Origin: Cellulomonas sp. JZ18
GTDB taxonomy: Bacteria; Actinomycetota; Actinomycetes; Actinomycetales; Cellulomonadaceae
Assembly: GCF_009720485.1 (NCBI RefSeq)
Contig: NZ_CP045245.1
Coordinates: forward strand, 2,108,001-2,172,000
Reading direction: 5' to 3'
Length of the DNA: 64,000 bases
Of the stretch, positions 35,852-50,271 are shown in pieces. Every line of letters starts with the position of its first letter. The stretch's first letter is position 1. The notes beneath the pieces are model-generated. The model was not told the DNA's origin. It worked only from the letters and a program-made list of their open reading frames with translations, and did no database searches. A program made the position numbers and the translations under genes.

Positions 35852-36643
35852 TCAGGCGCGGGCCGGCGCGTCGGTCGCGGCGGCCGGGTGCGGCCCCGTC
35901 GGGCGGGACCAGGCCCCGACGGCGACGTCCCGGACCTGCGCGTAGCGGTCGAGCACGACCTCGGCGAGCCGAGGGTCGGGGGCCAGCGCGTCGGCGACCA
36001 CGTCGGCACCCGCCTCGAGCACCCGGTCGAGGAAGTACCCCGGCGCGAGCAGGTAGGACGCGACGACGACGCGGCCGCCCGGCGCGAGCCCCTCGCGGGC
36101 CTGGGCGACCGCGACGGGCACGCGCGGGTGCGCACCGGCCCCGAACCCGACGACGACGGCACGGCCGAGGCGCTCCGCGAGCCCGTCGGCGACGACGCGC
36201 ACGGCGTCGGCCGCCGCCGGGTCGCTCGAGCCCGCGGCTGCGAGCACGACGGCGTCGGCCTCCCGCAGCCCGGCGGCCGCGAGCCGGTCGGCGAGGATCT
36301 CCACGAGCCGTGGGTCGGGCCCGAGCGGCCCCGAGGCGGCTGCGCCCGGGCGGTCGACCGCCGCCGCGACGTCCACCTTCGTGTGGAAGCCGACGGACAG
36401 CAGCAGCGGCACGACCACGGCCGGCGCACCCGTGAGCGCGTCGGCGACGACGTCCGCGACCTCCGGTTGCTGCACGTCGACGAACGCCTCGCGCACGTCG
36501 AGGTCGGGGCGCAGGCGCGCGACGTCCTCGAGGATCGACCGGATCGCCGCGCGTCCGGTGACGCTGTCGGTGCCGTGGGAGCACCCCACCAGCACGGGTG
36601 CGGGCACGGGCGCCGGCGCGACGGTCGGGGTCGGGTCGGTCAT
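35852..36643 (-). CDS. Sirohydrochlorin chelatase (CbiX-type)
   Basis: A 263-residue chelatase with two CbiX-like halves. The N-terminal half has VLVGCSHGTDS with the catalytic His, and the second half has VVLAAAGSSDPAAADAV, in which the second His is absent. VPLLLSVGFHTKVDV carries a further conserved His. In this operon it most likely inserts iron into sirohydrochlorin to make siroheme for NirB. The start overlaps the hemD stop (ATGA). The last gene of the nirB operon; the symbol would be sirB or cbiX. Confidence 0.82.
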   Translation of the reverse strand: MTDPTPTVAPAPVPAPVLVGCSHGTDSVTGRAAIRSILEDVARLRPDLDVREAFVDVQQPEVADVVADALTGAPAVVVPLLLSVGFHTKVDVAAAVDRPGAAASGPLGPDPRLVEILADRLAAAGLREADAVVLAAAGSSDPAAADAVRVVADGLAERLGRAVVVGFGAGAHPRVPVAVAQAREGLAPGGRVVVASYLLAPGYFLDRVLEAGADVVADALAPDPRLAEVVLDRYAQVRDVAVGAWSRPTGPHPAAATDAPARA

Positions 36644-37761
36644 GCCTGCTCCTGCAGCTCGAGGCGGTAGCCGCGCTTGACGACGGTGCGGATGAGCCCC
36701 CGGCTGCCGGTGGCGTCGCGCAGGCGGGCGATCGCGACCTCCGCCGCGTGCGGGTCGGCGGACTCCCCCGGCAGGGCCGCGAGCACGCGCTCGCGCGGCA
36801 CCACGGAGCCGCGTGCGGACGCGAGCAGCCGCAGGACCTCCAGCCCGGTGCGGGACAGCGGCAGCACGTGGCCGTCGAGCACGGCGGCGGCGCGGTGCAC
36901 GCGCAGGGGCCCGGCCACGGTGTCGAGCGCCTCGAGCCCGCCGTAGTGCGTGACGATCGCGCGGACGAGCGAGCCGAGCCGTCCGCGGTCCGGCAGGAGC
37001 GGGGCGATCCCGCGCTCCTCGAGCGGCTTGGCGGTGACCGGCCCGACCGCCGCGAACACCACCGTGCCGGCGCGGTGGCGCTCGACCACGGCGTCGGTCA
37101 CGCCCGCGGCGTCGGCGGCGGCGAGCCACGCGGCGGCCCCGGGCGCGGACGTGAAGACGACGGTGTCGACCTCGCCGTCGGCGACGGCCCGCGTCGACGC
37201 GGCGACGACCGCCGGGTCGGGCGGCGGGCCCCAGCGGTAGACGACGAGGTTGCGCACCCGCGCCCCGGCCAGCACGAACGCCTCGTCGAGGCCGTCGGCG
37301 CCGGCGCCGTGGTGCTGGATCACGACGTCGCGCCCCGCGACGCCCTCGTCGAGGAGGACCTCCGCGATCTCGGCGCTCGTCTCGGACTCGGCCACCCAGT
37401 CGGCACTGAGGCCGGCGGCCTGGATCGCGCCCCGCGCCTTGGGCCCGCGGGCGATGATCCGCGTCCCCCGCAGCGTCTCCACGAGCCGGTCGGCCAGGCC
37501 CGCGGCGTCGGCGGCCTCGACCCAGCCGCGGAAGCCGATGCCGGTGGTGACGACCACGGTGTCGGGCGGGTCGGCCAGCACGCGGCGGGTCTCGGCCAGC
37601 AGGAGCGCGTCGTCGGTGTGCGGGACCATCCCGAGCGACGGCGCGTGCCGCACGGTGGCGCCGCGCCGCTCGAGGGCGGCGCTCAGCTCACCGGCGCGCC
37701 GGTCCGCGGTCACGAGCACGACGCAGCCGGCGAGCGTCTGGTCGATCATCGTGGCGGTCAC
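36640..37761 (-). CDS. hemD: Uroporphyrinogen-III synthase fused to a winged-helix DNA-binding domain
   Basis: A 373-residue two-domain protein. Residues 1-270 are uroporphyrinogen-III synthase (VVLVTADRRAGELSAALERRG, VFTSAPGAAAWL, FAAVGPVTAKPLEERG), which closes the tetrapyrrole ring. Residues 280-370 are an OmpR-like winged helix (LDGHVLPLSRTGLEVLRLLA, ADPHAAEVAIARLRDATG, TVVKRGYRLE). This fusion is known in actinobacteria next to nitrite reductase genes. GTG 37761 overlaps the siroheme synthase stop (GTGA) and is preferred over ATG 37749. It may sense tetrapyrrole status and regulate transcription. Confidence 0.88.
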   Translation of the reverse strand: MTATMIDQTLAGCVVLVTADRRAGELSAALERRGATVRHAPSLGMVPHTDDALLLAETRRVLADPPDTVVVTTGIGFRGWVEAADAAGLADRLVETLRGTRIIARGPKARGAIQAAGLSADWVAESETSAEIAEVLLDEGVAGRDVVIQHHGAGADGLDEAFVLAGARVRNLVVYRWGPPPDPAVVAASTRAVADGEVDTVVFTSAPGAAAWLAAADAAGVTDAVVERHRAGTVVFAAVGPVTAKPLEERGIAPLLPDRGRLGSLVRAIVTHYGGLEALDTVAGPLRVHRAAAVLDGHVLPLSRTGLEVLRLLASARGSVVPRERVLAALPGESADPHAAEVAIARLRDATGSRGLIRTVVKRGYRLELQEQA

Positions 37762-39046
37762 CGCACCATTGTCGCGGGCGGCGCGGGTTCGTGCGCCAGG
37801 TCCTGCAGCCGCGGGTCGTGGCCGCGCCCGGGCTCGAGCAGGCCCGGCGCCGCGACCGCGCCGAGCACGACGACCGCGGGCGACCGCACGCCCGCGGCCG
37901 CGGCGGCTGCGACGACCGCGTCCAGCGGAGCGCGCGTCACGCGCTGCCCCGCGAGCGTGGCCTCCTCCACCACGGCGACCGGCGTCGTGCCGGGGACGCC
38001 CGCGGCGAGGGCCGACGCGACGAGACCGGGCAGGGCGGCGACGCCCATGAGGACCACGACGGTGCACGAGGCGTCGCGCAGACCCGTGAGGGCGGCGGCC
38101 GACCAGCCGTCCGTGCCGTTCATGACGTGCACGGCGCCGACGGTCCCCCGGTGCGTGAGCGGGATGCCGGCGGCGGCCGGCGCCGCGAACGCGCTGCTCA
38201 CGCCGGGCACCACGGTGACCGGCACACCGGCCTCCCGGCACGCGAGCAGCTCCTCGCCGCCGCGTCCGTAGACGAAGGGGTCCCCGCCCTTGAGCCGCAC
38301 GACGACGCGCCCGCGCTGGGCCTGCTCGACGAGGACGCGGTTGATCTCCGCCTGCGGCACCGGGTGGTGCCCGGGGACTTGCCGACGTCGACGACCTCCA
38401 CGTCCTCGGGGAGCTCGTCGAGCACGCCCGTCGGCCCCAGGCGGTCGGTGACGACGACGTCGGCCTCGGCCAGCGCACGCCGCCCGGCGACGGTCAGCAG
38501 GTCGACGTCGCCCGGTCCCCCGCCCACGAGCACGACGCGGCCCTGGCCGGGTGCGCCGCGCCGGCGGCGGCGCAGGTCGACGCGTCCCTCGCGCAGCGTC
38601 GCCGCGAGCGCGTCGCGGACCTGGACCGACCGGCGCGGGTCGGCGCCGCCCGCGGAGACGACCCCGACCAGCACGTCGCCGGCGCGTGTCGTGGCCGGGG
38701 TGCGCGCCGTGCCGCGGGCGGGGCGGCGCGGACCGCCGGCGTCGACGCAGAACACGCGCCGCGCGGCCGCCCACGCGACGACGGCCTGGTCGGTGGCCCG
38801 GTCGCCGGTGGCGGTGTGCACGAGCCACGCGTCGTCGAGGTCCGCCGCCACGACCTCGCGGTCGACCCACCGCACCGATCCGCCGGCCACGACCAGGTCG
38901 GCGATCGGCTCGCACACCGCCGGGGCGACGACGCGCACCAGCGCGCCCTCCCCGAGCAGCGCCTGGACGCGCCGGGCGGCGACCGGTCCCCCGCCGGCGA
39001 CGACGACCGTGCGGCCGGTCAGCTCGACGGCGAGCAGCGCGGTCAC
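37758..39046 (-). pseudogene. cysG: Siroheme synthase (dehydrogenase/SUMT fusion), frame-disrupted as read
   Basis: About 429 residues if repaired. The N-terminal third is a CysG-type precorrin-2 dehydrogenase (VVVAGGGPVAARRVQALL, VFCVDAG). The remainder is uroporphyrinogen-III C-methyltransferase: VVLVGGGPGDVDLLTVAGRRAL, VVDVGKSPG then HHPVPQAEINRVLVEQA, and RLKGGDPFVYGRGGEE. The frame breaks between KSPG and HHPVP near 38371-38376, and one extra C or G in that run restores it. Start GTG 39046 overlaps nirD. It makes the siroheme precursor for the nitrite reductase. Confidence 0.88.
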
Positions 39047-39471
39047 GGCGCGTCCTCGGCCGCCACCGCGACCTCGACGCTCCCGTCGACGACCCGCACG
39101 GGCCAGGTCCGCAGGTCCGCCGACCGGCCGGCCACGGGCTCCTTCCCGGCCGGGTCGAGGCACGCGCCGGTGCGCAGGTCGAACACCTGCTTGTACATGG
39201 GCGAGGCGACCGTCGGCACCTCGGTGCCGTCGACGGCCCGTGAGCCGACGATCCCGCGGGCCAGCACGTGCGCGTCGCTGAACGGGTCGTGCTGCTGCAC
39301 GGCGAGCACCCGGTCGTCGACGAGGCGGAACAGGGCGACCTGCTCGAGGCGGCCGTCCGGCCCGTCGGGGACGAGGGCCGCGACGCCGCGCTCCGGCGCG
39401 AGGTCGTCGAGGCGGCACACGGGGAGCCAGGTCCGCCGCGGGGCGCCGAGTGTGAGGTCGAGCGTGGTCAC
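39043..39471 (-). CDS. nirD: Nitrite reductase small subunit
   Basis: A 142-residue Rieske-like protein, the small subunit of NADH-dependent assimilatory nitrite reductase. It has LPVCRLDDLAPERGVAALV, FSDAHVLARGIVG and SPMYKQVFDLRTGACLDP. As usual for NirD, the Rieske cluster ligands are missing. The GTG start overlaps nirB (GTGA) and the stop overlaps the siroheme synthase start. Intact, unlike its neighbours. Confidence 0.92.
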   Translation of the reverse strand: MTTLDLTLGAPRRTWLPVCRLDDLAPERGVAALVPDGPDGRLEQVALFRLVDDRVLAVQQHDPFSDAHVLARGIVGSRAVDGTEVPTVASPMYKQVFDLRTGACLDPAGKEPVAGRSADLRTWPVRVVDGSVEVAVAAEDAP

Positions 39472-42059
39472 GAGCGGACCTCCAGGGTCGAGCCGGCGAC
39501 GAGGACGGGTCCGCCGTTCGCGGCGGCGGCCCGCTCGGCGGCGGTGGCGGGGCGGGCCTGGCCGCGCTCGGGCACGTAGGCCAGGGACGGGTCGGGCAGG
39601 TCGGGCGCGTTGACGAAGGACGCGAACCGGCGCAGCTTCTCGGGGTCCTCGAGGGTGGCGCGCCACTCGTCCTCGTACTCCTCGACGTGCCGGGCCATCT
39701 GCGCGTCGAGGTCGGCGCAGATGCCGAGGGAGTCGTCCATGACGACCGCGCGCACGCCGTCGAGGCCGCCCTCGACCTCCTCGATCCAGGGTGCGGTGCG
39801 CTGCAGCCGGTCGGCGGTGCGCACGTAGTAGAGGAGGAAACGGTCGATGGTGCGGATGAGCGCCTCGGTGTCGAGGTCCTCCGCGAGCAGGCGCGCGTGC
39901 CGGGGCGTGAAGCCGCCGTTGCCGCCGACGTAGACGTTCCACCCCTTGTCGGTCGCGATGACGCCGACGTCCTTGCCGCGGGCCTCGGCGCACTCGCGCG
40001 CACAGCCGGAGACGCCGAGCTTGATCTTGTGCGGTGAGCGCAGCCCCCGGTAGCGCAGTTCGAGCATGACCGCGAGCGCCACGGAGTCCTGCACGCCGAA
40101 GCGGCACCACGTGGACCCGACGCACGACTTCACGGTGCGCAGGGACTTGCCGTACGCGTGGCCGGACTCGAACCCGGCGTCGACGAGCCGCTGCCAGATG
40201 AGGGGCAGCTGGTCGATGCGTGCGCCGAACATGTCGATGCGCTGCCCGCCGGTGATCTTGGTGTAGAGCCCGAACTCCTGGGCGACCTGCCCGATGACGA
40301 TGAGCCCCTCCGGGGTGACCTCGCCGCCGGGGATGCGCGGGACGACCGAGTAGGAGCCGTCCTTCTGCAGGTTCGCCATGACGTGGTCGTTGGTGTCCTG
40401 CAGCGCGGCGCGCTCGCCGTCGAGGACGTGCCCGGGGGCGGTCGTCGCGAGGATCGAGGCGACCGCGGGCTTGCAGATGTCGCACCCGCGGCCGGCGGCG
40501 CGCGTGCCGAACCGCTCCATCACCTCGGTGAACGTGCGTACCCCGGACACGCGGACGGCGTCGTAGAGCTGCGCGCGGGACAGCGCGACGTGCTCGCACA
40601 GCGCGGTGCTCACGGTGACGCCCAGCTTCTCGAGCTCGGTCGCCATGAGCTTCTTGACGAGCGGGAGGCAGGACCCGCAGCTCGTGCCGGCGCGCGTGCA
40701 CGCCTTCACGGCGCCGAGGTCGTGGCAGCCCTCGTCGCTGACGGCGTGCCGGATCTCGCCGGCGGAGACGTTGTTGCACGAGCAGACACCCGCGTCGTCG
40801 GGCAGCTCGAGGTCGGGGGCGCCGCCGGTGCCCTCGGGAGCAGGAACGCGGACGGGTCGCCGGGCAGCTCCCGCCCGAGCATGGGGCGCAGGCTCGCGTA
40901 CGCGCTCGCGTCGCCGACGAGCACACCGCCCAGCAGCGTGCGCGCGTCGTCGGACAGGACGAGCTTCTTGTAGACGCCGGCGACCGGGTCGGCCCAGACG
41001 ATCTCGAGCGCGCCGGGCGTGCGGGCGAACGCGTCGCCGAAGCTGGCCACGTCCACGCCCGCGAGCTTGAGCTTGGTCGCGGTGTCCGCACCGGGGAAGG
41101 TGGCCCCGCCGCCGAGGAGGCGGTCGGCCGTCACCTCCGCCATCGCGTAGCCGGGGCGACGAGGCCGATGCAGGCGCCCTGGATGCAGGCCACCTCGCCG
41201 ACCGCCGAGACGTCGGGGTCCTCGGACAGGCAGGTGTCGTCGACGACGACGCCGCCCCGGGGGCCGACCGGGAGGCCGGACTCCCGCGCGAGCTCGTCCC
41301 GCGGCCGCACGCCCGCGGCCACCACGACGACGTCCGCGTCGAGGCGGGTGCCGTCGGCGAGCTCGACGCGCCCGACGCCGCCACGCCGGTGCTCGTGCAC
41401 GCGCGTCGTCATCGCCTGCGTCCGCACGCCGATGCCGATGCGGTTGATCAGGCGTCGCAGCGCCTCGCCGCCGCCGAGGTCGACCTGCGCCGACATCAGG
41501 TGCGTGTCGACCTGCAGGACGGTGGCCCGGGCGCCGAGCGCGTCGAGCGCCCCGGCCGCCTCGAGGCCGAGCAGGCCGCCGCCGAGGACGACGCCCCGCA
41601 CGGGGTGCGTCCGGTCCTCCTGCAGCTGCGTGACGTACCCGCGCAGGGCCGCGACGTCGTCGAGCGTGCGGTACACGAACACGCCCGGCAGGTCCGCGCC
41701 CTCCATCGGTGGCACCCAGGCGTACGAGCCGGTGGCGAGGACCAGGTGGTCGTACGCGTACGTGCGGCCGGACGCGGCGGTCACGGTCCGCGCGGCGCGG
41801 TCGACGGCCGTGACGGCGTCGCCGCGCACGAGCGTCACGAGCGGGTCGTCCCACAGGGCGGCGTCGCCGAGGGCGAGGTCCTCCGGCGTCCGGCCGGAGA
41901 AGTAGCTCGTCAGCGCGACGCGGTCGTAGGGGCGGCGCGGCTCCTCCGCGAGGAGCGTGATGCGCCAGGTACCGGCGGTGTCGCGGTCGCGCAGGGCCTC
42001 GACGAGGCGCTGGGCGACCATGCCGCCGCCGACGACGACGAGGTGGCGGGGGCGTCCAT
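39468..42059 (-). pseudogene. nirB: Assimilatory nitrite reductase large subunit, frame-disrupted in three places as read
   Basis: About 864 residues if repaired, the normal NirB length. Order: FAD/NAD domains (LVVVGGGMVAQRLVEAL, GVVLGGGLLGLEAAGAL), a BFD-like [2Fe-2S] domain (CSCNNVSAGEI, CTRAGTSCGSC), and the nitrite reductase domain with siroheme-[4Fe-4S] cysteines (SCVGSTWC, GVSGCARECAEARG). Breaks lie at the GGGGG run 42048-42052 just inside the ATG, at 41153-41156 (VAPGYAMAE) and at 40836-40838 (LLPEGTG); one added base at each restores the frame. ATG 42059 has GGAGG. It reduces nitrite to ammonia with NADH. Confidence 0.9.
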
Positions 42060-42136
42060 GGGGGCCTCCGGGTGCGGGTGGCGGTGCGGGTGGCGGTGCG
42101 GGTCCGCGGCTGCGGGTCCGACGGGGGCGTGAGCCG

Positions 42137-42223
42137 ACGCTACGAACGGCGTGTTTCGGGCGGCGTCGCGCGTGCGTTACCCCGGCGGAACGATCCGCGC
42201 ACACCCGCACGGGTGGCGGTGTG
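42137..42223 (-). promoter_or_regulatory. nirB promoter with GlnR-like box and CACAC-N14-GTGTG repeat
   Basis: Reading on the plus strand: ACGCTA (the -10 TAGCGT of nirB, 42137-42142), CGTGTTTCG (42150-42158, at the -35 position), GTTAC-N6-GGAAC (42176-42191, fits the GlnR consensus gTnAC-N6-GaAAC), and CACAC-N14-GTGTG (42200-42223). The narK promoter has the same four parts at the same distances. GlnR activates nitrate assimilation genes in actinobacteria; the role of the last repeat is unknown. Confidence 0.7.
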
Positions 42224-42276
42224 AGGACGCCGACGGGGGACGTCCCCGCGGACGGGACGCGCGCGCGGCGGGCGCC

Positions 42277-42282
42277 TACCGT
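42277..42282 (+). promoter_or_regulatory. Putative -10 of a leaderless transcript, TACCGT
   Basis: TACCGT ends six bases before the ATG at 42289, so transcription would begin at or next to the start codon. Confidence 0.4.
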
Positions 42283-42288
42283 GGCGGG

Positions 42289-43889
42289 ATGGGACGTGAC
42301 CGGCACCGGTCGGCGGCCGCGGCGTCCGGCCTCGCGGCGGGTGCCGTCACGGTCGGCGTCGGGGCGGTCCTCGCGGCCGTGACCGGCGCGTCGTCGGACC
42401 CGCTCGTCGCCGTGGGCGCGGCGTTCGTCGACCGCACGCCGCCCTGGCTGAAGGACTGGGCGGTCGCGACGTTCGGCACCGCCGACAAGACGGCGCTCGC
42501 GGTCGGCCAGGCGGTCGTCCTGGCGGCCCTCGCGGCGCTCGCCGGGGTCCTGGCGCACCGGCGGTGGTCGTGGGGCGCCCTGCTCGTCGTCGCACTCGGG
42601 GGCCTGGCGGGCCTCGCCGCCGTGACGCGCCCCGACGCCGGCCTGCTCGCACCGCTGCCGGCGGTCGCGGGTGCCGCCGCCGGGCTGCTCGTGCTGCGGA
42701 CCCTGCTGCGCCGCCTCCCCCGGCCGGCGCCGACCGGGCCGGCGCGGACGCGTCCGTCCCGGCGGGCCCGGCCGTGCCGTCGGAACCGGCCGTGCCGTCG
42801 GAACCGGCCCTGCCGCCGGACCCGTCCAGGCGCGGGTTCCTGCTCGCTGCGTCGCTCGCCGCCGCGCTGGGGGTCGTCGGGCTCGCGGTCGGCCGCGTCG
42901 CCGGCGCGGCCGGACGCGGCGTGCAGGCCGTCCGCGAGGGGCTCCGGCTGCCGCGGCCCGTCCGTCCCGCACCCGCTCCCCCGCCCGACGTGCAGGTGGC
43001 GGTCGCCGGCGTCGACCCGTGGGTCACGCCGCCCGCGACCTTCTACCGGATCGACACCGCCCTGGTCGTGCCGCAGGTCGACCCGGCGACGTGGCGGCTG
43101 CGCGTGCACGGCCTCGTCGAGCGCGAGGTCGAGCTGACCTGGGACGAGCTGCTGGCCTCCGACCTCGTCGAGGCGTGGGTGACCCTGGCGTGCGTCTCCA
43201 ACCCGGTCGGCGGGGACCTCGTCGGCAACCAGCGCTGGCTGGGCCTGCCCGTCCGCGAGGTGCTCGCCCGGGCCGTGCCGACCGCGGACGCCGACATGGT
43301 GCTCTCGCGCAGCGTCGACGGCTTCACCGCGTCCACCCCGCTCGACGCGCTCACGGACGACCGCGACGCCCTGCTGGCGGTCGGCATGGACGGCGCCCCG
43401 CTGCCGCCCGAGCACGGGTTCCCCGTCCGGCTCGTCGTGCCCGGGCTCTACGGGTACGTGTCCGCGACGAAGTGGGTCACCGAGCTCGAGGTCACGCGGT
43501 TCGACGCGGCCGAGGCGTACTGGACGCAGCGCGGGTGGTCGCAGCGCGGGCCGGTGAAGACGCAGTCGCGCATCGACGTCCCGCGCGCCGGTGCGACCGT
43601 CCCGGCCGGTGACGTCGTCGTCGCCGGCACCGCGTGGGCGCAGGGCCGGGGCGTCACCGGCGTGCAGGTGCGGGTCGACGACGGGCCGTGGCAGGACGCC
43701 GAGCTCGCGGGCGACGGCGGCGTCGACACGTGGCGGCAGTGGCGCTGGACGTGGCGGGACGCCGGCGCCGGCGGCCACCGGCTGCACGTGCGCGCGTCCG
43801 ACCCGCAGGGCCCGCAGACCGGCGCCCGGCAGGGCGTCGTGCCGGACGGTGCGACGGGGTACCACCGGGTCGACGTCACGGTCGTCTGA
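42289..43889 (+). pseudogene. Membrane-anchored sulfite-oxidase-like molybdoenzyme, frame-disrupted as read
   Basis: About 533 residues if repaired. The first 145 residues hold four or five transmembrane segments, followed by a Pro/Ala linker with a PAVPSE repeat, another hydrophobic segment (FLLAASLAAALGVVGLAVG) and a sulfite-oxidase-type Moco domain (VTLACVSNPVGG with the Cys ligand of molybdenum, NQRWLGLPVREVL) and a C-terminal Mo-co dimerisation domain. The frame breaks at the CCCCC run 42717-42721; one added C restores it. It is probably an outward-facing membrane oxidoreductase. It is divergent from nirB across the shared GlnR region, but its substrate is unknown. Confidence 0.85.
42768..42821 (+). 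repeat. 18-bp tandem repeat coding PAVPSE
   Basis: Two identical 18-base units (42768-42785, 42786-42803) and a diverged third (42804-42821), encoding PAVPSE, PAVPSE, PALPPD in the linker of the molybdoenzyme. Such repeats change length easily. Confidence 0.75.
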
Positions 43890-43900
43890 CGCCCGAGGGC

Positions 43901-46900
43901 TCAGTACACGTCGCGCGCGTACCGGCGCTGCTCGGTCAGCCGCTTCACGTAGGCGGCCGCGTCCTGCTCGCCCATCCCGCCGTGGCGTGCGACGACCTCG
44001 CGCAGCGCCCGGTCGACGTCCGCCGCCATGCGCGAGGCGTCCCCGCACACGTACAGGTGCGCGCCGCGCTCGAGCCACGCCCACAGCCGCGCGCCCTGCT
44101 CGCGCATCCGGTCCTGCACGTAGACCTTGGTGCGCTGGTCGCGGGAGAACGCGGTGTCGAGGCGCGTGAGGACCGCCTCGGCGCGCAGCGCGTCGAGCTC
44201 CTCGCGGTACCAGAAGTCCGTCGCCGCGTGCTGCTCGCCGAACAGCAGCCAGCTCTCGCCACGGTCGCCGCGGGCGCGGCGCTCCTCGAGGAAGCCGACG
44301 AACGGGGCGACCCCGGTGCCCGGCCCCACCATGACGACCGGGACGGAGCCGTCCTCGGGCAGGTGGAAGTGGGTGGAGGGCTGCACGTGCACGGCCACCT
44401 CGGCGCCCTCGGGCGCGTCGGCCAGGTACGCCGAGCAGACGCCCGTGCGGGCGGCGCCCGTCGGGCCGGCGTAGCGCACGACCGACACCGTCAGGCGCAC
44501 GCGCGCCGGGTCGACGAGCGGGCTGGACGAGATCGAGTACTGCCGCGGCTGCAGGCGCCGCAGCACGTCCGTCCACTCCTGCGCCGTGGCGCGCACGCCG
44601 AGCTCGGCGACGACGTCGACGGCCTGCCGGCCCCACGACCACTTGGCGAGCTCGTCGCGGTTGTCCGGGCGCAGGAGGCGGCGCAGCCGCTCGTCGCCCG
44701 TGCGCTCGGCGAGGAACCGCAGGAGCGCCGTGGACGGACGGGTGACGTCGAGCTCGTGCCGCAGCGCGTCCGCGAAGCCCTGGGTGCCGGCCCCCGCGAC
44801 GGTGACCCGCGCGTCCGCGTCCGCGCCCGTGACGTCGAGCCACTCCGCCACGAGCGCGGCGGCGTTGACCGGCCGGACCGCGAGCGCGTCGCCGGCGCGG
44901 TACGGCACGGGCAGCGGGCTCGCGGTCGTGTCGAGCACGAGCTCGCGGACCTCCTTGGCGGACCCGGGGGCGCCGAGCCTGCGGTTGACGACGAGGCGGG
45001 CGGTGCCGGGGTGGCTGCGGGTCGCACGGGCGGGCGGCCCGGGAGAGGCGGGTGCGGCGTGGGCGGCAACCGGGCGCGGCTCGGTGCGCGCGGGGCCGCC
45101 GGCCCCCGGTGCGCGCCCCGACGTCCCCGTCCCCGTCGCCGTCCCCGTCGCGCTCGCGTCGCCGTCGTCCCGCCCGTCCTCGCCGGCGCCGGTCGAAGCG
45201 GACGGCGCCGCACCGCCCGCGAGCGCGGCCGCGAGGTCGTCGACCCAGCGCGCGACGGCGTCGTCGTCGCCGGGCTCGCGGTCGAGACGCGCGACGAGCC
45301 GCCGGGCACCGAGCTCCTCCAGACGCCGGTCGAGGCGGCGCCCGTGCCCGCAGAACTGGTCGTAGGCGGGGTCACCGAGGGCGAGGACGGCGTACCGGGC
45401 GCCGTCGAAGCGCGGCGCGGCCGGGTCGGCGAGCAGCTCCCACAGGGCGGTGCCGTTGTCGGGGGCGTCACCGTCGCCGAAGGTGCTGGTGACGAGGACG
45501 ACGTCGGCGCGCCGCGGGAGGGTGTCGAGGGCGTCGTCCATGGCCACGACCCGCGGGGGCGTCCGGTCGCGGCGGCGAGGCGCGCGGCGACGTCCGCGGC
45601 GACCTGCTCCGCGGTGCCGGTCTGCGACGCCCACAGCACGACGAGCTCGCGGACGGGCGTGGTGAGGGCGGGTGCGCGTCCGCCGCCGGGGGCGCGCGAG
45701 AACATGCCGGCCAGGACGCCGTCGACCCACAGGGCCGCGGCACCGTCGAGCGGTGCGGTCGGCGGGAGCACCGGCGTCCCGGGGGTGCCGCCGCCGAGGC
45801 CCGCGAGGAAGCCGGCGAGGTAGCGCTGCTCGTCGGGGCCCAGCGCCGGGGGCGCGACGTCCTCGAGGCCGAGCGCGGCCGCGAGCGCGCGCATCGTCGC
45901 GGGGCCGTCGAGGGGGGTGCCCGCGCCACCGGCCGGGGCCCGGACGCCGTCCGCCGGGCCCGCGCCCACCGGGTCCGCGCCCGTCGGCTCCGCGACCGCC
46001 GTGTCCGCGCGCGCGCCGTCACCGGCCACCTCCGCCCCGGCGACGGGGGTCAGCGTGACGGCGCACGCCTTGAGCTCCGGCTGGAACGACAGGGGGTCGA
46101 CGGCGTCGTTGGTCACGGCGTTCACGGCGAGGTACTCACCGAACAGGTCGTTCCAGTGGAACGGGGCGAACAGCGTGCCCGGGCGCACGCGGTCGGTGAC
46201 GACGACCGGCAGGACGGCGCGCCCGCGGCGTGAGGCCACCTCCGCGGTGCTCCCGGTCGTGACGCCGTGCCGCGCCGCGTCGTCGGGGTGGACCTCGACG
46301 AACGGGCCCGGGTTCAGACGGTTGAGCGCCGGCACCTTCCCGGTCTTGGTCAGCGTGTGCCACTGGTGCTGCACGCGTCCCGAGGTGAGCACGAGGGGGT
46401 AGTCGTCGTCGGGCGTCTCGGCGGGCTCCATGTGCGGGCGGGCGTGGAAGACGGCCCGGCCGCTCGGCGTCGGGAACACCAGGTGGGGACGGCTGCCGTC
46501 GGGGCGCACGTGCACCGGCTGGTGCACGCCGTCGTTGCGGTAGCGGACCGGGTTGCGCGCAGGCCCGTCCGGCGCGGCGGGCCACTGCACCGGCCCGGTG
46601 CGCAGGCGCGCGTACGTGACGCCGCGCAGGTCGTACCCCGTACGCGGGTTCGTGCTGCCGCGGATCTCCTCGAAGACCTCCTCGGCGCACGTGTACGCGA
46701 ACCCGTCGAACCCCATCGCGGTGGCGACGCGGGCGATGAGCTGCCAGTCGGGCAGGGCGTCCCCGGGCGGGTCCAGGGCGTGACGCGCGAGCGTCATGGT
46801 CCGCTCGCTGTTGACCATCACCCCGTCGGCCTCGGACCAGAGCGCGGCGGGGAGCACGACGTCGGCGTAGGCGTTCGTCTCGGTGTCGGCGAACACGTCC

Positions 46901-48234
46901 TGGGTCACGACGAGCTCGGCGCGCTCGAGCCCCTCGATGACGGTGCGGCGGTTCGCCACCGACGCGACCGGGTTGGTGCAGATCACCCAGCAGGCCCGGA
47001 TCTCGCCGTCGGCCATGCGGCGGAACATGTCGACGGTGCCGGTGCCGACGCCGTCGGCGCGGATCGTGCCCGGCGGCACGCCCCACAGCTCCTCGACGAA
47101 CGCGCGGTCGTCGGCGTCGAGCACGGACCGCTGCCCCGGCAGGCCCGGGCCCATGTACCCCATCTCGCGCCCGCCCATGGCGTTGGGCTGCCCCGTCAGG
47201 GAGAACGGCCCGCTGCCCCGCCGGCAGATCGCGCCCGTCGCCAGGTGCAGGTTGACCAGAGCGTTCGTGCTCCACGTGCCGTGGGTGGACTGGTTGAGCC
47301 CCATGGTCCAGCACGACACCCAGTTCCCGGCACCGGCGATGAGCGCGGCCGCGGCGCGCAGGTCGTCGGCGGGCACGCCCGTGAGGGCCTCGACGACGTC
47401 CGGCGGGTAGTCCGCGAGGAACGCCGGCATCTGCTCCCAGCCCTCGGTGTGCTCCGCGACGAACTCCTCGTCGACGGCGTCCGACTCCACCAGCAGGTGC
47501 AGCAGGCCGTTGAGGAGGGCGAGGTCGGAGCCCGGACGCACCTGCAGGAACAGGTCGGCCTTCTCGGCGGTGGCGGTGCGGCGCGGGTCGACGACGATGA
47601 GCTTCGCGCCCGCCTTGACGCGGTCGAGCAGGCGCAGGAACAGGATGGGGTGGCAGTCGGCCATGTTCGCGCCGATGACAAGGAACACGTCGGCGTGGTC
47701 GAGGTCCTCGTAGGAGCCCGGCGGCCCGTCCGCTCCGAGCGAGAGCTTGTAGCCGGTGCCGGCGCTGGCCATGCACAGCCGGGAGTTCGACTCGATCTGG
47801 TTGGTGCGCAGGTACCCCTTGGCGAGCTTGTTCGCCAGGTACTGCGCCTCGATGCTCATCTGGCCCGACACGTACAGCGCGACGGCGTCCGGGCCGTGCG
47901 TGTCGAGGACCTCCCGCAGGCGCCGAGCGACGAGCGCGACCGCGTCGTCCAGGGACGCCTGGCCCGCCTCCCCGCCCCGCTCTGCGCGCACGAGCGCCGT
48001 CGACAGGCGCCCGCGGGCGGAGAACAGGTCCGCGCTCGTCGCGCCCTTGGTGCACAGCCGCCCACCGTTGGACGGGTGGCCGCGGTCGCCGGCGGCGCGC
48101 GTCACGCGCCGGGTGCCGGCGTCGTCCTCGGTCACGTCGAGGACGACGCCGCAGCCGACGCCGCAGTACGAGCACACGGTCGCGACCCGGGTCGCGGTCG
48201 TGCCCTCGGACTGCGCGGTGGTGGTGGCCGTCAC
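43901..48234 (-). pseudogene. Assimilatory nitrate reductase fused to diflavin reductase, frame-disrupted as read
   Basis: About 1444 residues if repaired. The N-terminal 700 residues are a molybdopterin nitrate reductase of the NarB/NasC type with a [4Fe-4S] site (CSYCGVGCGV, GGRLCTKG) and Moco-binding region (CTNPVASVANRR). A disordered linker leads to a flavodoxin domain ([15 protein letters not shown]) and a CysJ-like FAD/NADPH reductase ([43 protein letters not shown]). The one protein can pass electrons from NAD(P)H to nitrate. The frame breaks at the GGGGG run 45555-45559 between the two halves. GTG 48234 follows GGGGAGGG, 25 bases after narK. This fusion is known in actinobacteria. 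Confidence 0.88.
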
Positions 48235-48259
48235 GCCGGTGCCCTCCCCTGCCCCGCCG

Positions 48260-49645
48260 TCAGATCGTCGCCGCGCCGAACGCGGACCCGCGACGCTGGT
48301 ACACCGCCCACGTGGTCAGCGCCATGACCGCGTACAGGCCGACGATCACCCACAGCGCGGCCTGGATCGACCCGGTCAGCGACGTCGAGACGGCGAACCC
48401 CCGGGGGATGAGGAACCCGCCGACCGCACCGACCGCGCCGGCGATGCCGATGCAGCCCGCGGCCGCCTTCGCCCGCCGGCCCCGGTCCGCGTCGTCGCTC
48501 GCGCCGAACCGGAACACCGCCGGGATCATGCGGTACACCGAGCCGTTGCCGGCACCCGTGGCGAGGAAGAGCAGCAGGAACGAGCCGAAGAACAGGCCGA
48601 ACGACTGCGCCCGCAGGGCGAGGATCGCCCCGACCGTGCCCAGCGCCATCACGCCGAACGCGACGACCGTGACCCGTGCGCCCCCGAAGCGGTCCGCGAG
48701 CGCGCCCCCGGCGGGCCGCGCGACGGAGCCGACGAGCGCACCGAGGAACGCGATGGTGAGCGTCACCTCGGGGAACTGGGCGTCGAGCAGCGTCGGGAAC
48801 GCACCGGAGAAGCCGATGAACGAGCCGAACGTGCCGATGTAGACGAACGAGATGATCCACGTGTGCGTCGCGCGGGCGGCCGCGCCGTACGCCCGCGGGT
48901 CGGCCTTGGCGTTGCTCAGGTTGTCCATGAACCGCCACGCGAGCACGGCCGCGAGCACGGCGAGCGGCAGGAACATCAGGCCGGCCCGCTCGAGCGAGAG
49001 CCCCGCGCCCGCGACGACGACCAGCGGCACGGCGAGCTGCACCGCGGCGGTGCCGATGTTGCCGCCCGCGGCGTTGAGGCCGAGCGCCTTGCCCTTCTCC
49101 CGCTCCGGGTAGAAGAACGAGATGTTGGCCATCGACGACGCGAAGTTGCCGCCGCCGACGCCGGCGAGCGCGGCCACGGCCAGCAGCGCGCCGAACGGCA
49201 GCTGCGGGTTCTGCACGGCCCAGACGAGCGCACCCGTCGGCAGGAGCAGCAGCAGCGCCGAGACCACCGTCCAGTTGCGGCCGCCGAACACGGGCACCGC
49301 GAACGTGTACGGGATGCGCAGCGTCGCCCCGACGAGGCTCGGCACGGCGATGAGCCAGAACATCTGGTCGACGGTGAGCACGAAGCCCGCGTCGGGCAGG
49401 CGGGGCACGACGATGCTCCACAGCGCCCACACGGCGAAGCCGAGGAACTCGGCGAACACCGACAGGCCGAGGTTGCGGCGGGCGACGGCACGGCCGACCG
49501 TGCGCCACTGCTGCGCGTCCTCGGGGTCCCAGCCGTCGATCCAGCGGCCGCGGCGGACGGTCAGACCGGCGGCCGCCGCTGCGGCGTCGGGGGCGGGCGC
49601 GACCGGCGGTGCGGGCGCTGCTGCGGGCGTGGTGGTCTGGGTCAC
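48260..49645 (-). CDS. narK: Nitrate/nitrite transporter, MFS NarK/NasA type
   Basis: A 461-residue major facilitator protein with 12 hydrophobic segments. Nitrate-signature regions are GGGNFASSMANISFFYPEREKGKALGLNAAGGNIG, with its two Gly/Asn-rich parts, and the second ATGAGNGSVYRMIPAVF. The conserved Arg of helix 2 falls in VGATLRIPYTFAVP. It brings nitrate in for the reductase encoded next. GTG 49645 is preferred over the ATG at 49684 for the GGAGG five bases before it and because a low-complexity N-terminus would otherwise be added. It is first in a two-gene operon under a GlnR-type promoter. Confidence 0.92.
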   Translation of the reverse strand: MTQTTTPAAAPAPPVAPAPDAAAAAAGLTVRRGRWIDGWDPEDAQQWRTVGRAVARRNLGLSVFAEFLGFAVWALWSIVVPRLPDAGFVLTVDQMFWLIAVPSLVGATLRIPYTFAVPVFGGRNWTVVSALLLLLPTGALVWAVQNPQLPFGALLAVAALAGVGGGNFASSMANISFFYPEREKGKALGLNAAGGNIGTAAVQLAVPLVVVAGAGLSLERAGLMFLPLAVLAAVLAWRFMDNLSNAKADPRAYGAAARATHTWIISFVYIGTFGSFIGFSGAFPTLLDAQFPEVTLTIAFLGALVGSVARPAGGALADRFGGARVTVVAFGVMALGTVGAILALRAQSFGLFFGSFLLLFLATGAGNGSVYRMIPAVFRFGASDDADRGRRAKAAAGCIGIAGAVGAVGGFLIPRGFAVSTSLTGSIQAALWVIVGLYAVMALTTWAVYQRRGSAFGAATI

Positions 49646-49780
49646 GGGAGCCTCCGGGCGTCGGGTGCGCGCGGTGCGCGGCACGGGTGGGGCGTCCGGG
49701 CGCCGGGCGGTGCCCGGAGCCTCGCGGTGGTGCGGGGGCTGCAGGTCGTCGGCGGCCGAGAGGTGCGGCCGCGTGCCCCG

Positions 49781-49867
49781 ACGCTAGGGACGTCGTGTTT
49801 CGCCCGACCGCGGGCTGGCGTAACCCGCCGCGAACGTCTTCCGCACACGCCCGGGCCGGCAGGTGTG
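49781..49867 (-). promoter_or_regulatory. narK promoter with GlnR-like box and CACAC-N14-GTGTG repeat
   Basis: ACGCTA (the -10 TAGCGT of narK, 49781-49786), CGTGTTTCG (49794-49802), GTAAC-N6-CGAAC (49820-49835) and CACAC-N14-GTGTG (49844-49867). All internal distances equal those of the nirB promoter: 33 bases from -10 to the GlnR box and 8 from box to repeat. The remainder of the 284-base gap is spacer and a leader. Confidence 0.7.
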
Positions 49868-49917
49868 AGGACGTGCCGACCCGCGGCGTCCCGACGGGCG
49901 GTTCCCGCGGCGGCTGC

Positions 49918-49929: not shown

Positions 49930-50271
49930 ATGCCGGACCTGAACGCCCTCGTGACCACCCACCTGGACCTGGCCCGCGCGGACGCGCACGGCCGCAGCGC
50001 CGAGCTCGTCGTGCACGACGGGGAGCTGCGCCAGACCGTCATCGCGCTCACCGCGGGCACCGAGCTCGGCGAGCACGCCTCGCCGCCGGCGGCGAGCCTG
50101 CAGGCCCTCGTCGGCCGCGTCCGCGTGCACGTCGGCGACGAGGTGCAGCAGGAGGTGGCCGCGGGCGAGCTGTGGACGCTCACGCACGAGCGGCACTCCG
50201 TGCTCGCGCTCGAGGACTCCGTCGTGCTGCTCACGACCGTGACGAGCGTCGACCGCACGCCGCACGGATGA
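49930..50271 (+). CDS. Cupin-domain protein
   Basis: A 113-residue single cupin. TELGEHASPPAASLQALVGRVRV and GELWTLTHERHSVLALED form the two beta-barrel motifs. The first motif keeps one His (GEHA) but not the full GX5HXH, so the metal site is reduced. These small cupins often sense or store a ligand. It overlaps the MoeB-like gene (ATGA) and starts the Moco region; whether it is linked to molybdate or nitrate use is inference. Confidence 0.78.
   Translation: MPDLNALVTTHLDLARADAHGRSAELVVHDGELRQTVIALTAGTELGEHASPPAASLQALVGRVRVHVGDEVQQEVAAGELWTLTHERHSVLALEDSVVLLTTVTSVDRTPHG

Follow-up and report, generated by a model that had tools for sequence, protein, structure and literature searches.

The closest described relatives of the promoters considered here are those at which two regulators, GlnR and NnaR, act together in Streptomyces and mycobacteria; for these organisms binding, cooperation of NnaR with GlnR and a requirement for nitrate or nitrite use have all been shown. 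NnaR of Streptomyces coelicolor combines a HemD-like with an OmpR-type DNA-binding domain and acts with GlnR at narK and nirB, and the HemD domain of Streptomyces NnaR is stated to be catalytically inactive (PMC11162112). We have analysed a stretch of 64,000 nucleotides from Cellulomonas sp. JZ18 (NZ_CP045245.1, positions 2,108,001 to 2,172,000; "the window" below), in which the promoters of nirB and narK share an inverted repeat, a GlnR-like box and a -10 element at the same distances. Judging from motifs and layout, we would put at roughly nine in ten the probability that both are GlnR-dependent promoters with an NnaR box directly upstream.

In Mycobacterium smegmatis the NnaR motif ctCAC[a/c]-N16-[t/g]GTGag lies near GlnR sites, with a similar spacing in most of the transcripts studied (Antczak 2018, PMC6277429). 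NnaR of this species shifted the nirB, narK and trHbN promoters and, at the same concentration, did not shift those of msmeg_4008 or msmeg_5360, the latter of which has the motif (PMC6277429). The motif reported for M. abscessus, CTCAC[A/C]..GTGAG, is compatible with that of M. smegmatis (PMC11162112).

Seen against this background, the nirB and narK promoters are a well-conserved example of known NnaR-GlnR control and not a new system: both regulators, the motif, their cooperation and a roughly conserved spacing are already published. With M. smegmatis they have in common the motif core, the N16 spacer, the order NnaR box, GlnR box, start site, and the targets nirB and narK (PMC6277429). With the NnaR regulon of M. 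abscessus, whose targets include narK3 and nasN, they share the protein architecture and the motif; there, however, narK3-nirBD-nnaR-sirB is one operon, whereas the cluster here has two promoters (PMC11162112). Relative to S. coelicolor, it may be added that in this window nnaR sits in the nirB cluster. We found nothing in the literature on Cellulomonas with GlnR and nitrate, and the exact register of 11 base pairs (bp) described below was not found stated in the NnaR and GlnR literature surveyed; part of this register may already be in print.

The repeat as a candidate NnaR operator

Both genes lie on the minus strand, and on the gene strand each promoter reads, from far to near, repeat, GlnR-like box, CGAAACACG and TAGCGT. 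An earlier note on this DNA had described box and repeat in forward-strand reading, and its parts and distances are exact to the base: GTTAC-N6-GGAAC at 42176-42191 and CACAC-N14-GTGTG at 42200-42223 before nirB, GTAAC-N6-CGAAC at 49820-49835 and CACAC-N14-GTGTG at 49844-49867 before narK, with gaps of 33 (-10 element to box) and 8 (box to repeat) at both promoters. Of the AGGACG that it placed after the repeat, AG is conserved, being the end of the NnaR box, and the rest is not.

The note also held that the repeat fits no known operator, and here it has to be corrected. On the gene strand the repeat reads CTCACA-N16-TGTGCG, which agrees in both core and spacing with the NnaR motif already published, CACAC-N14-GTGTG being the same element with one extra base counted per side; the right flank is CG at both window boxes, unlike the ag of the M. 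smegmatis motif (PMC6277429). A profile of the NnaR half-sites gives 21.7 of a possible 22.8 at nirB and at narK alike. Moreover, nnaR itself is encoded in the window, its start about 4.3 kilobases (kb) downstream of that of nirB. The protein scores 120.2 bits for the HemD-like domain (PF02602), 37.6 bits for the OmpR-type DNA-binding domain (PF00486) and 399.4 bits, with a cut-off of 273, for NCBIfam NF005568, a model that carries the name uroporphyrinogen-III synthase and whose alignment covers both domains (residues 43-407 of the query stretch); it is 94% identical to the NnaR of C. telluris. NnaR is not the sole HemD in the genome, as a second HEM4 (HemD) match, better than that of NnaR, lies at C1:3880329. 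GlnR is encoded outside the window at C1:448505 (GlnR_1st, PF21695, 145.2 bits); its best solved relative is 8hih, and 4o1h, named GlnR, matches too. The repeat is a candidate NnaR operator, not an operator of a kind so far undescribed, and from the motif match and the presence of nnaR it is very likely that a second regulator acts with GlnR, as had been suggested.

For this second regulator a nitrate or molybdenum sensor had been proposed. An operator for a third, undescribed sensor of nitrate or molybdate acting with GlnR would suit the genes concerned, which are nitrate genes with one for a molybdopterin enzyme among them, and sequence alone names no protein; the repeat nevertheless matches the published NnaR motif, and in all 58 loci of the family that have both genes (window included) nnaR is on the strand of nirB and downstream of it, so that we consider this explanation extremely improbable. 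NnaR is a HemD-like orphan regulator with no demonstrated sensing of nitrate or molybdenum, and such a sensor was dropped as a candidate after the motif had been matched to NnaR and nnaR identified in the window.

That the same parts recur at the same distances goes far beyond what chance would give. When a profile is trained on 81 promoters from outside the genus Cellulomonas, it scores 75.5 and 72.9 at the nirB and narK modules; the next best value in the window is -3.1 (overlapping), and the best in 30 random 64-kb windows matched in first-order composition is -2.8. It is the arrangement, not the bare repeat, that carries this significance, because the repeat by itself is a weak signal. Exact CACAC-N14-GTGTG occurs 2 times in the window and 4 times in the genome of 4.04 megabases, against 0 for the reversed-pattern control in the genome. 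When up to 2 mismatches are allowed there are 28 occurrences in the window and a mean of 49 in window shuffles; an exact copy is present somewhere in 92/121 family genomes among the matches listed, and the reversed control is found in many too. As evidence on its own the repeat was rejected on these grounds. The two other exact copies in the genome, considered as regulatory sites, were set aside as chance; one, at C1:2520100-2520123 (L003), immediately precedes the ATG of a small gene, and no GlnR site was seen there; the other is apparently intragenic.

GlnR sites and other GlnR-type promoters

That both promoters are under GlnR-type control, as had been proposed, is borne out by half-sites spaced 11 bp apart upstream of the -10 element, by the same layout at glnA and by the GlnR gene of the genome. 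The glnA promoter reads GTAAC-N6-GAAAC-N6-GGCAC-N6-GAAAC-N10-TAGCCT. Because one of its half-sites keeps the same ten-base distance to the -10 element, CGAAACACG can be said to contain the promoter-proximal GlnR half-site, b2; CGTGTTTCG, previously listed as a separate part of the module, includes this half-site and loses its independent standing. The urtA promoter has GAAACACGACGTCCCTAGCGT, like narK. A canonical a2 half-site has no match at either promoter, the corresponding positions being GCGAC (nirB) and CCGCG (narK). A comparable a-b-(weak a2)-b2 layout is known from amtB of S. coelicolor (PMC5826061) and nas of Amycolatopsis mediterranei (PMC10704036), where a2 is dispensable and b2 needed, and since the published a2 sites are likewise atypical and dispensable we do not count a2 as defining. 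Unlike the promoters described here, those two have no NnaR box in the available descriptions.

A sequence-only model of the module was built from 52 of 60 non-redundant promoters, both window promoters included (alignment A1). Over the whole genome it gives 27 matches at an expectation value (E) of up to 10, and the full module is found only at nirB (70.1 bits) and narK (66.0 bits); no third was found, whereas for M. smegmatis seven transcripts are listed (PMC6277429). Next come glnA and urea carboxylase (26.2 bits each; the latter identified from a partial piece below the cut-off of its protein model), urtA (20.2), amtB (17.0) and pstS (16.5). The glnA match starts at model position 35, that is, without the NnaR box, and the NnaR half-site score is -0.5 at glnA, -1.3 at urtA and 5.6 at urea carboxylase.

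The weak selection of pstS by the model would be in keeping with a different role for NnaR, namely that of an upstream-bound repressor or anti-repressor instead of a co-activator, with PhoP or MtrA, whose sites are GlnR-like, as examples of what it would act against; in other actinomycetes there are OmpR-type regulators that overlap with GlnR sites or compete there. In M. smegmatis under nitrogen depletion, however, transcripts of narK and nirB fall when nnaR is deleted (PMC6277429), and Streptomyces NnaR has been described as a possible co-activator, and we find such a role quite improbable.

Conservation in the family and the class

NnaR is present in 95/121 family genomes, from which 60 loci were taken, best-scoring and spread over genera; besides the window, 57 of these have nirB and 39 have narK. 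They yielded 96 upstream regions of usable length, two narK regions being left out as too short (L108, L109). Conservation of the repeat in homologous promoters, a check on which the earlier proposal could have failed, was seen within the family and partly also within the class. An iterated ungapped profile, trained on the same promoters, detects the module in 55/58 nirB and 38/38 narK regions of the family. When the NnaR box and a1-b1 are scored separately they lie 32 bases apart in 85/96 regions, as in both window promoters; with a reversed NnaR profile as control any single distance is found in at most 5/96. The spacing within the box is similarly sharp: CTCAC-N18-GTG[AC]G occurs in 85/98 regions, N17 in 2 and any other spacing from 8 to 28 in at most 5. 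As for the -10 element, TANNNT is found without fitting at position 80 in a fraction of 0.49 and at 81 in 0.43 of 88 box-anchored sequences, and stands 15 bases after the start of b2 in 90/93 promoters, a figure that leans upward, the b2 register having been picked among four offsets favouring GAAAC and the -10 element. In 18/93 promoters an ATG follows the -10 element by 6 or 7 bases, as in leaderless messages, a feature shared with mycobacteria (PMC6277429).

Considering how nearly identical the nirB and narK promoters are from b2 to the -10 element, one might suppose that an old duplication produced one from the other, with a spacing that was inherited and not selected. Across 93 promoters of many genera, however, contacts and spacing persist even though N16 and the larger part of the sequence between b1 and b2 have diverged, and nirB and narK retain a partly different consensus, which speaks against a mere copy; we take this origin to be very improbable.

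Among the 26 family genomes with no NnaR match, NirB was found in a single genome and NarK in 4, of which three are 37-40% identical and one is partial. No module stands beside these five matches, which says little about loss of the box alone, as these genomes are mostly without nirB and narK. A separate observation concerns five loci (L076, L077, L078, L080 and L082) from some of the genera: here narK and nirB point away from each other, and their two NnaR boxes are arranged back to back, sometimes nearly touching.

Beyond the family, NnaR occurs in 171/296 class genomes, and 40 loci were fetched. In 26 of them the module model has matches with E no higher than 0.001, many times before narK, nirB or nasN and sometimes beside none of these, in families f2, f4, f5, f9, f10, f24, f25, f26 and f33. 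Anchoring on the NnaR half-sites alone gives a clearer picture than the spacing test with family-trained profiles mentioned below: CTCAC-N18-GTG[AC]G is present in 20/89 class upstream regions and the N17 form in 8, and no other spacing between 8 and 28 is seen more than once. Finally, a match at E up to 0.1 is seen in 14/21 named loci: all eight Cellulomonas, two Janibacter, one of two Phycicoccus, Kineococcus and two metagenome-assembled genomes.

Several results weigh against GlnR-dependent promoters with an NnaR box directly upstream, or limit their reach. Three of the 58 family nirB regions are without the module (L120, L121 and L123); their NnaR homologs are 38-44% identical, and these distant homologs near nirB may have another operator or belong to another subfamily. 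The family profiles for module, spacing and b2 register were trained on the same related promoters, the values of 75.5 and 72.9 alone being held out. In the class, 14/40 loci lack a match at E up to 0.001, and the 32-base distance is found in 16/89 upstream regions (3 more at 31), many others having no good NnaR box, in a test that used family-trained profiles and is hence diluted. No match was found in the stretch searched for 7/21 named loci: five Demequina, one Phycicoccus and a short Actinotalea contig. The step from b1 to b2 is 22 in 52/93 promoters and 23 in 41/93, the latter, window included, showing a slip of one base; this slack resembles the one-base separation of GlnR boxes reported at a nasA promoter (PMC10704036). 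Within the genome, amtB has an NnaR half-site match of 9.2 bits, and the urea carboxylase match covers model positions 5-101, from which there may be a weak NnaR contact at that promoter. Lastly, association of NnaR with GlnR in M. smegmatis was weak in pull-down and absent in two-hybrid (PMC6277429), and strong contact of the two off DNA is for this reason disfavoured.

The 11-bp register and a possible mechanism

Counting from the C of CAC, the right half of the NnaR box, GTG[A/C]G, occupies positions 21-25, a1 (GTTnC) 32-36, b1 (GTAAC) 43-47, a2 54-58 and b2 65-69 or 66-70. The left NnaR half-site is inverted and lies two steps upstream of the right half. GTG[A/C]G (NnaR) resembles GTnAC (GlnR), and both regulators have OmpR-type domains. 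In the 20 class regions picked by NnaR half-sites alone, the AC dinucleotide peaks at positions 46, 35 and 68 (0.55, 0.50 and 0.45), and between 26 and 75 one of the eleven phases holds 33/95 of the AC dinucleotides in these regions and 175/424 in the family.

We would picture GlnR on direct half-sites in steps of about 11 bp, at a1, b1, the degenerate a2 and b2, with b2, ending 10 bases before the -10 element, probably standing in for a -35 element as at glnA of the same genome. NnaR would bind the inverted repeat CTCACA-N16-TGTG(A/C)G, its downstream half exactly one 11-bp step above a1. It is from this one-step distance that we infer a packing of the NnaR DNA-binding domain, head-to-tail, on the first GlnR, which could aid GlnR binding and activation; a review describes GlnR domains as head-to-tail on DNA in the solved complex. 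GlnR would report nitrogen limitation, and NnaR would add a pathway signal, perhaps through a ligand of its HemD-like domain. Because nnaR is encoded downstream of nirB, NnaR is probably made from the nirB promoter and so probably activates its own gene. A bolder and rather doubtful idea is that NnaR and GlnR form one continuous array in a single 11-bp register, with an NnaR half in place of a further GlnR half-site, and that the HemD-derived domain reads an intermediate of the uroporphyrinogen/sirohaem path and licenses GlnR. If this were true, nitrite reductase would be made only when a supply of sirohaem is possible.

Gene neighbourhood

The features of the window are collected in Table 1. 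The name nasN is given by analogy with M. abscessus (PMC11162112), and narK is followed by the nasN-like gene in 37/37 family loci that have both (window included). Between nirB and nnaR there are a Rieske-type (NirD-like) piece and tetrapyrrole-methylase pieces. The nirB, nasN-like and cysG-like genes are each split over frames, and two nirB pieces share a frame in L064; errors in the assembly sequence seem likelier than decay. Close behind the NnaR box of nirB lies a divergent gene for a sulfite-oxidase-type molybdopterin oxidoreductase (about 42290-43889, plus strand), and close behind that of narK a divergent gene for a small protein without a Pfam match (49932-50271, plus strand), both starts being set by eye.

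With respect to a promoter of its own for nnaR, bare CAC-N18-GTG is present in some of 61 upstream regions, window included, mostly in apparent upstream coding sequence. In L107, where neither nirB nor narK was found in the stretch, two sequences resembling the box are seen upstream of nnaR, at about -116 and -50 relative to where the nnaR match begins; this is the only promoter-like case by eye, hinting at a separate nnaR promoter.

Table 1. Genes and promoter elements of the nitrate cluster in the window.
Feature	Position	Strand	Basis or remark
nnaR, HemD-like domain (PF02602) and OmpR-type DNA-binding domain (PF00486)	36640..37761, start approximate	-	Pfam, NCBIfam
cysG-like gene, more than one frame	37758-40003	-	protein models
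nirB, nitrite reductase large subunit, more than one frame	39468..42060	-	protein models
-10 element TAGCGT, nirB promoter	42137..42142	-	read directly, family profile
CGTGTTTCG, nirB promoter	42150-42158	-	read directly
GlnR b2 half-site GAAAC, nirB promoter, within CGTGTTTCG	42153..42157	-	10 bases upstream of -10
Degenerate GlnR a2 position GCGAC, nirB promoter	42165..42169	-	predicted
GlnR b1 half-site GTAAC, nirB promoter	42176..42180	-	predicted
GlnR a1 half-site GTTCC, nirB promoter	42187..42191	-	predicted
Predicted NnaR box CTCACA-N16-TGTGCG (gene strand), nirB promoter	42198..42225	-	motif match, profile
nasN-like nitrate reductase, molybdopterin part and CysJ-like flavin part in different frames	43901..48234	-	downstream of narK
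narK, nitrate/nitrite transporter, start uncertain	48260..49684	-	NarK/NarU models, below cut-offs
-10 element TAGCGT, narK promoter	49781..49786	-	read directly, family profile
CGTGTTTCG, narK promoter	49794-49802	-	read directly
GlnR b2 half-site GAAAC, narK promoter	49797..49801	-	predicted
Degenerate GlnR a2 position CCGCG, narK promoter	49809..49813	-	predicted
GlnR b1 half-site GTTAC, narK promoter	49820..49824	-	predicted
GlnR a1 half-site GTTCG, narK promoter	49831..49835	-	predicted
Predicted NnaR box CTCACA-N16-TGTGCG (gene strand), narK promoter	49842..49869	-	motif match, profile

Significance

With these promoters the NnaR-GlnR system, known from Streptomyces and mycobacteria, now takes in Cellulomonas and its family. 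The fixed register of the sites of both regulators, seen also in part of the class, turns what had been a "similar spacing" into a precise geometric rule, and this rule provides both a testable model of packing and a usable signature for assimilatory nitrate promoters.

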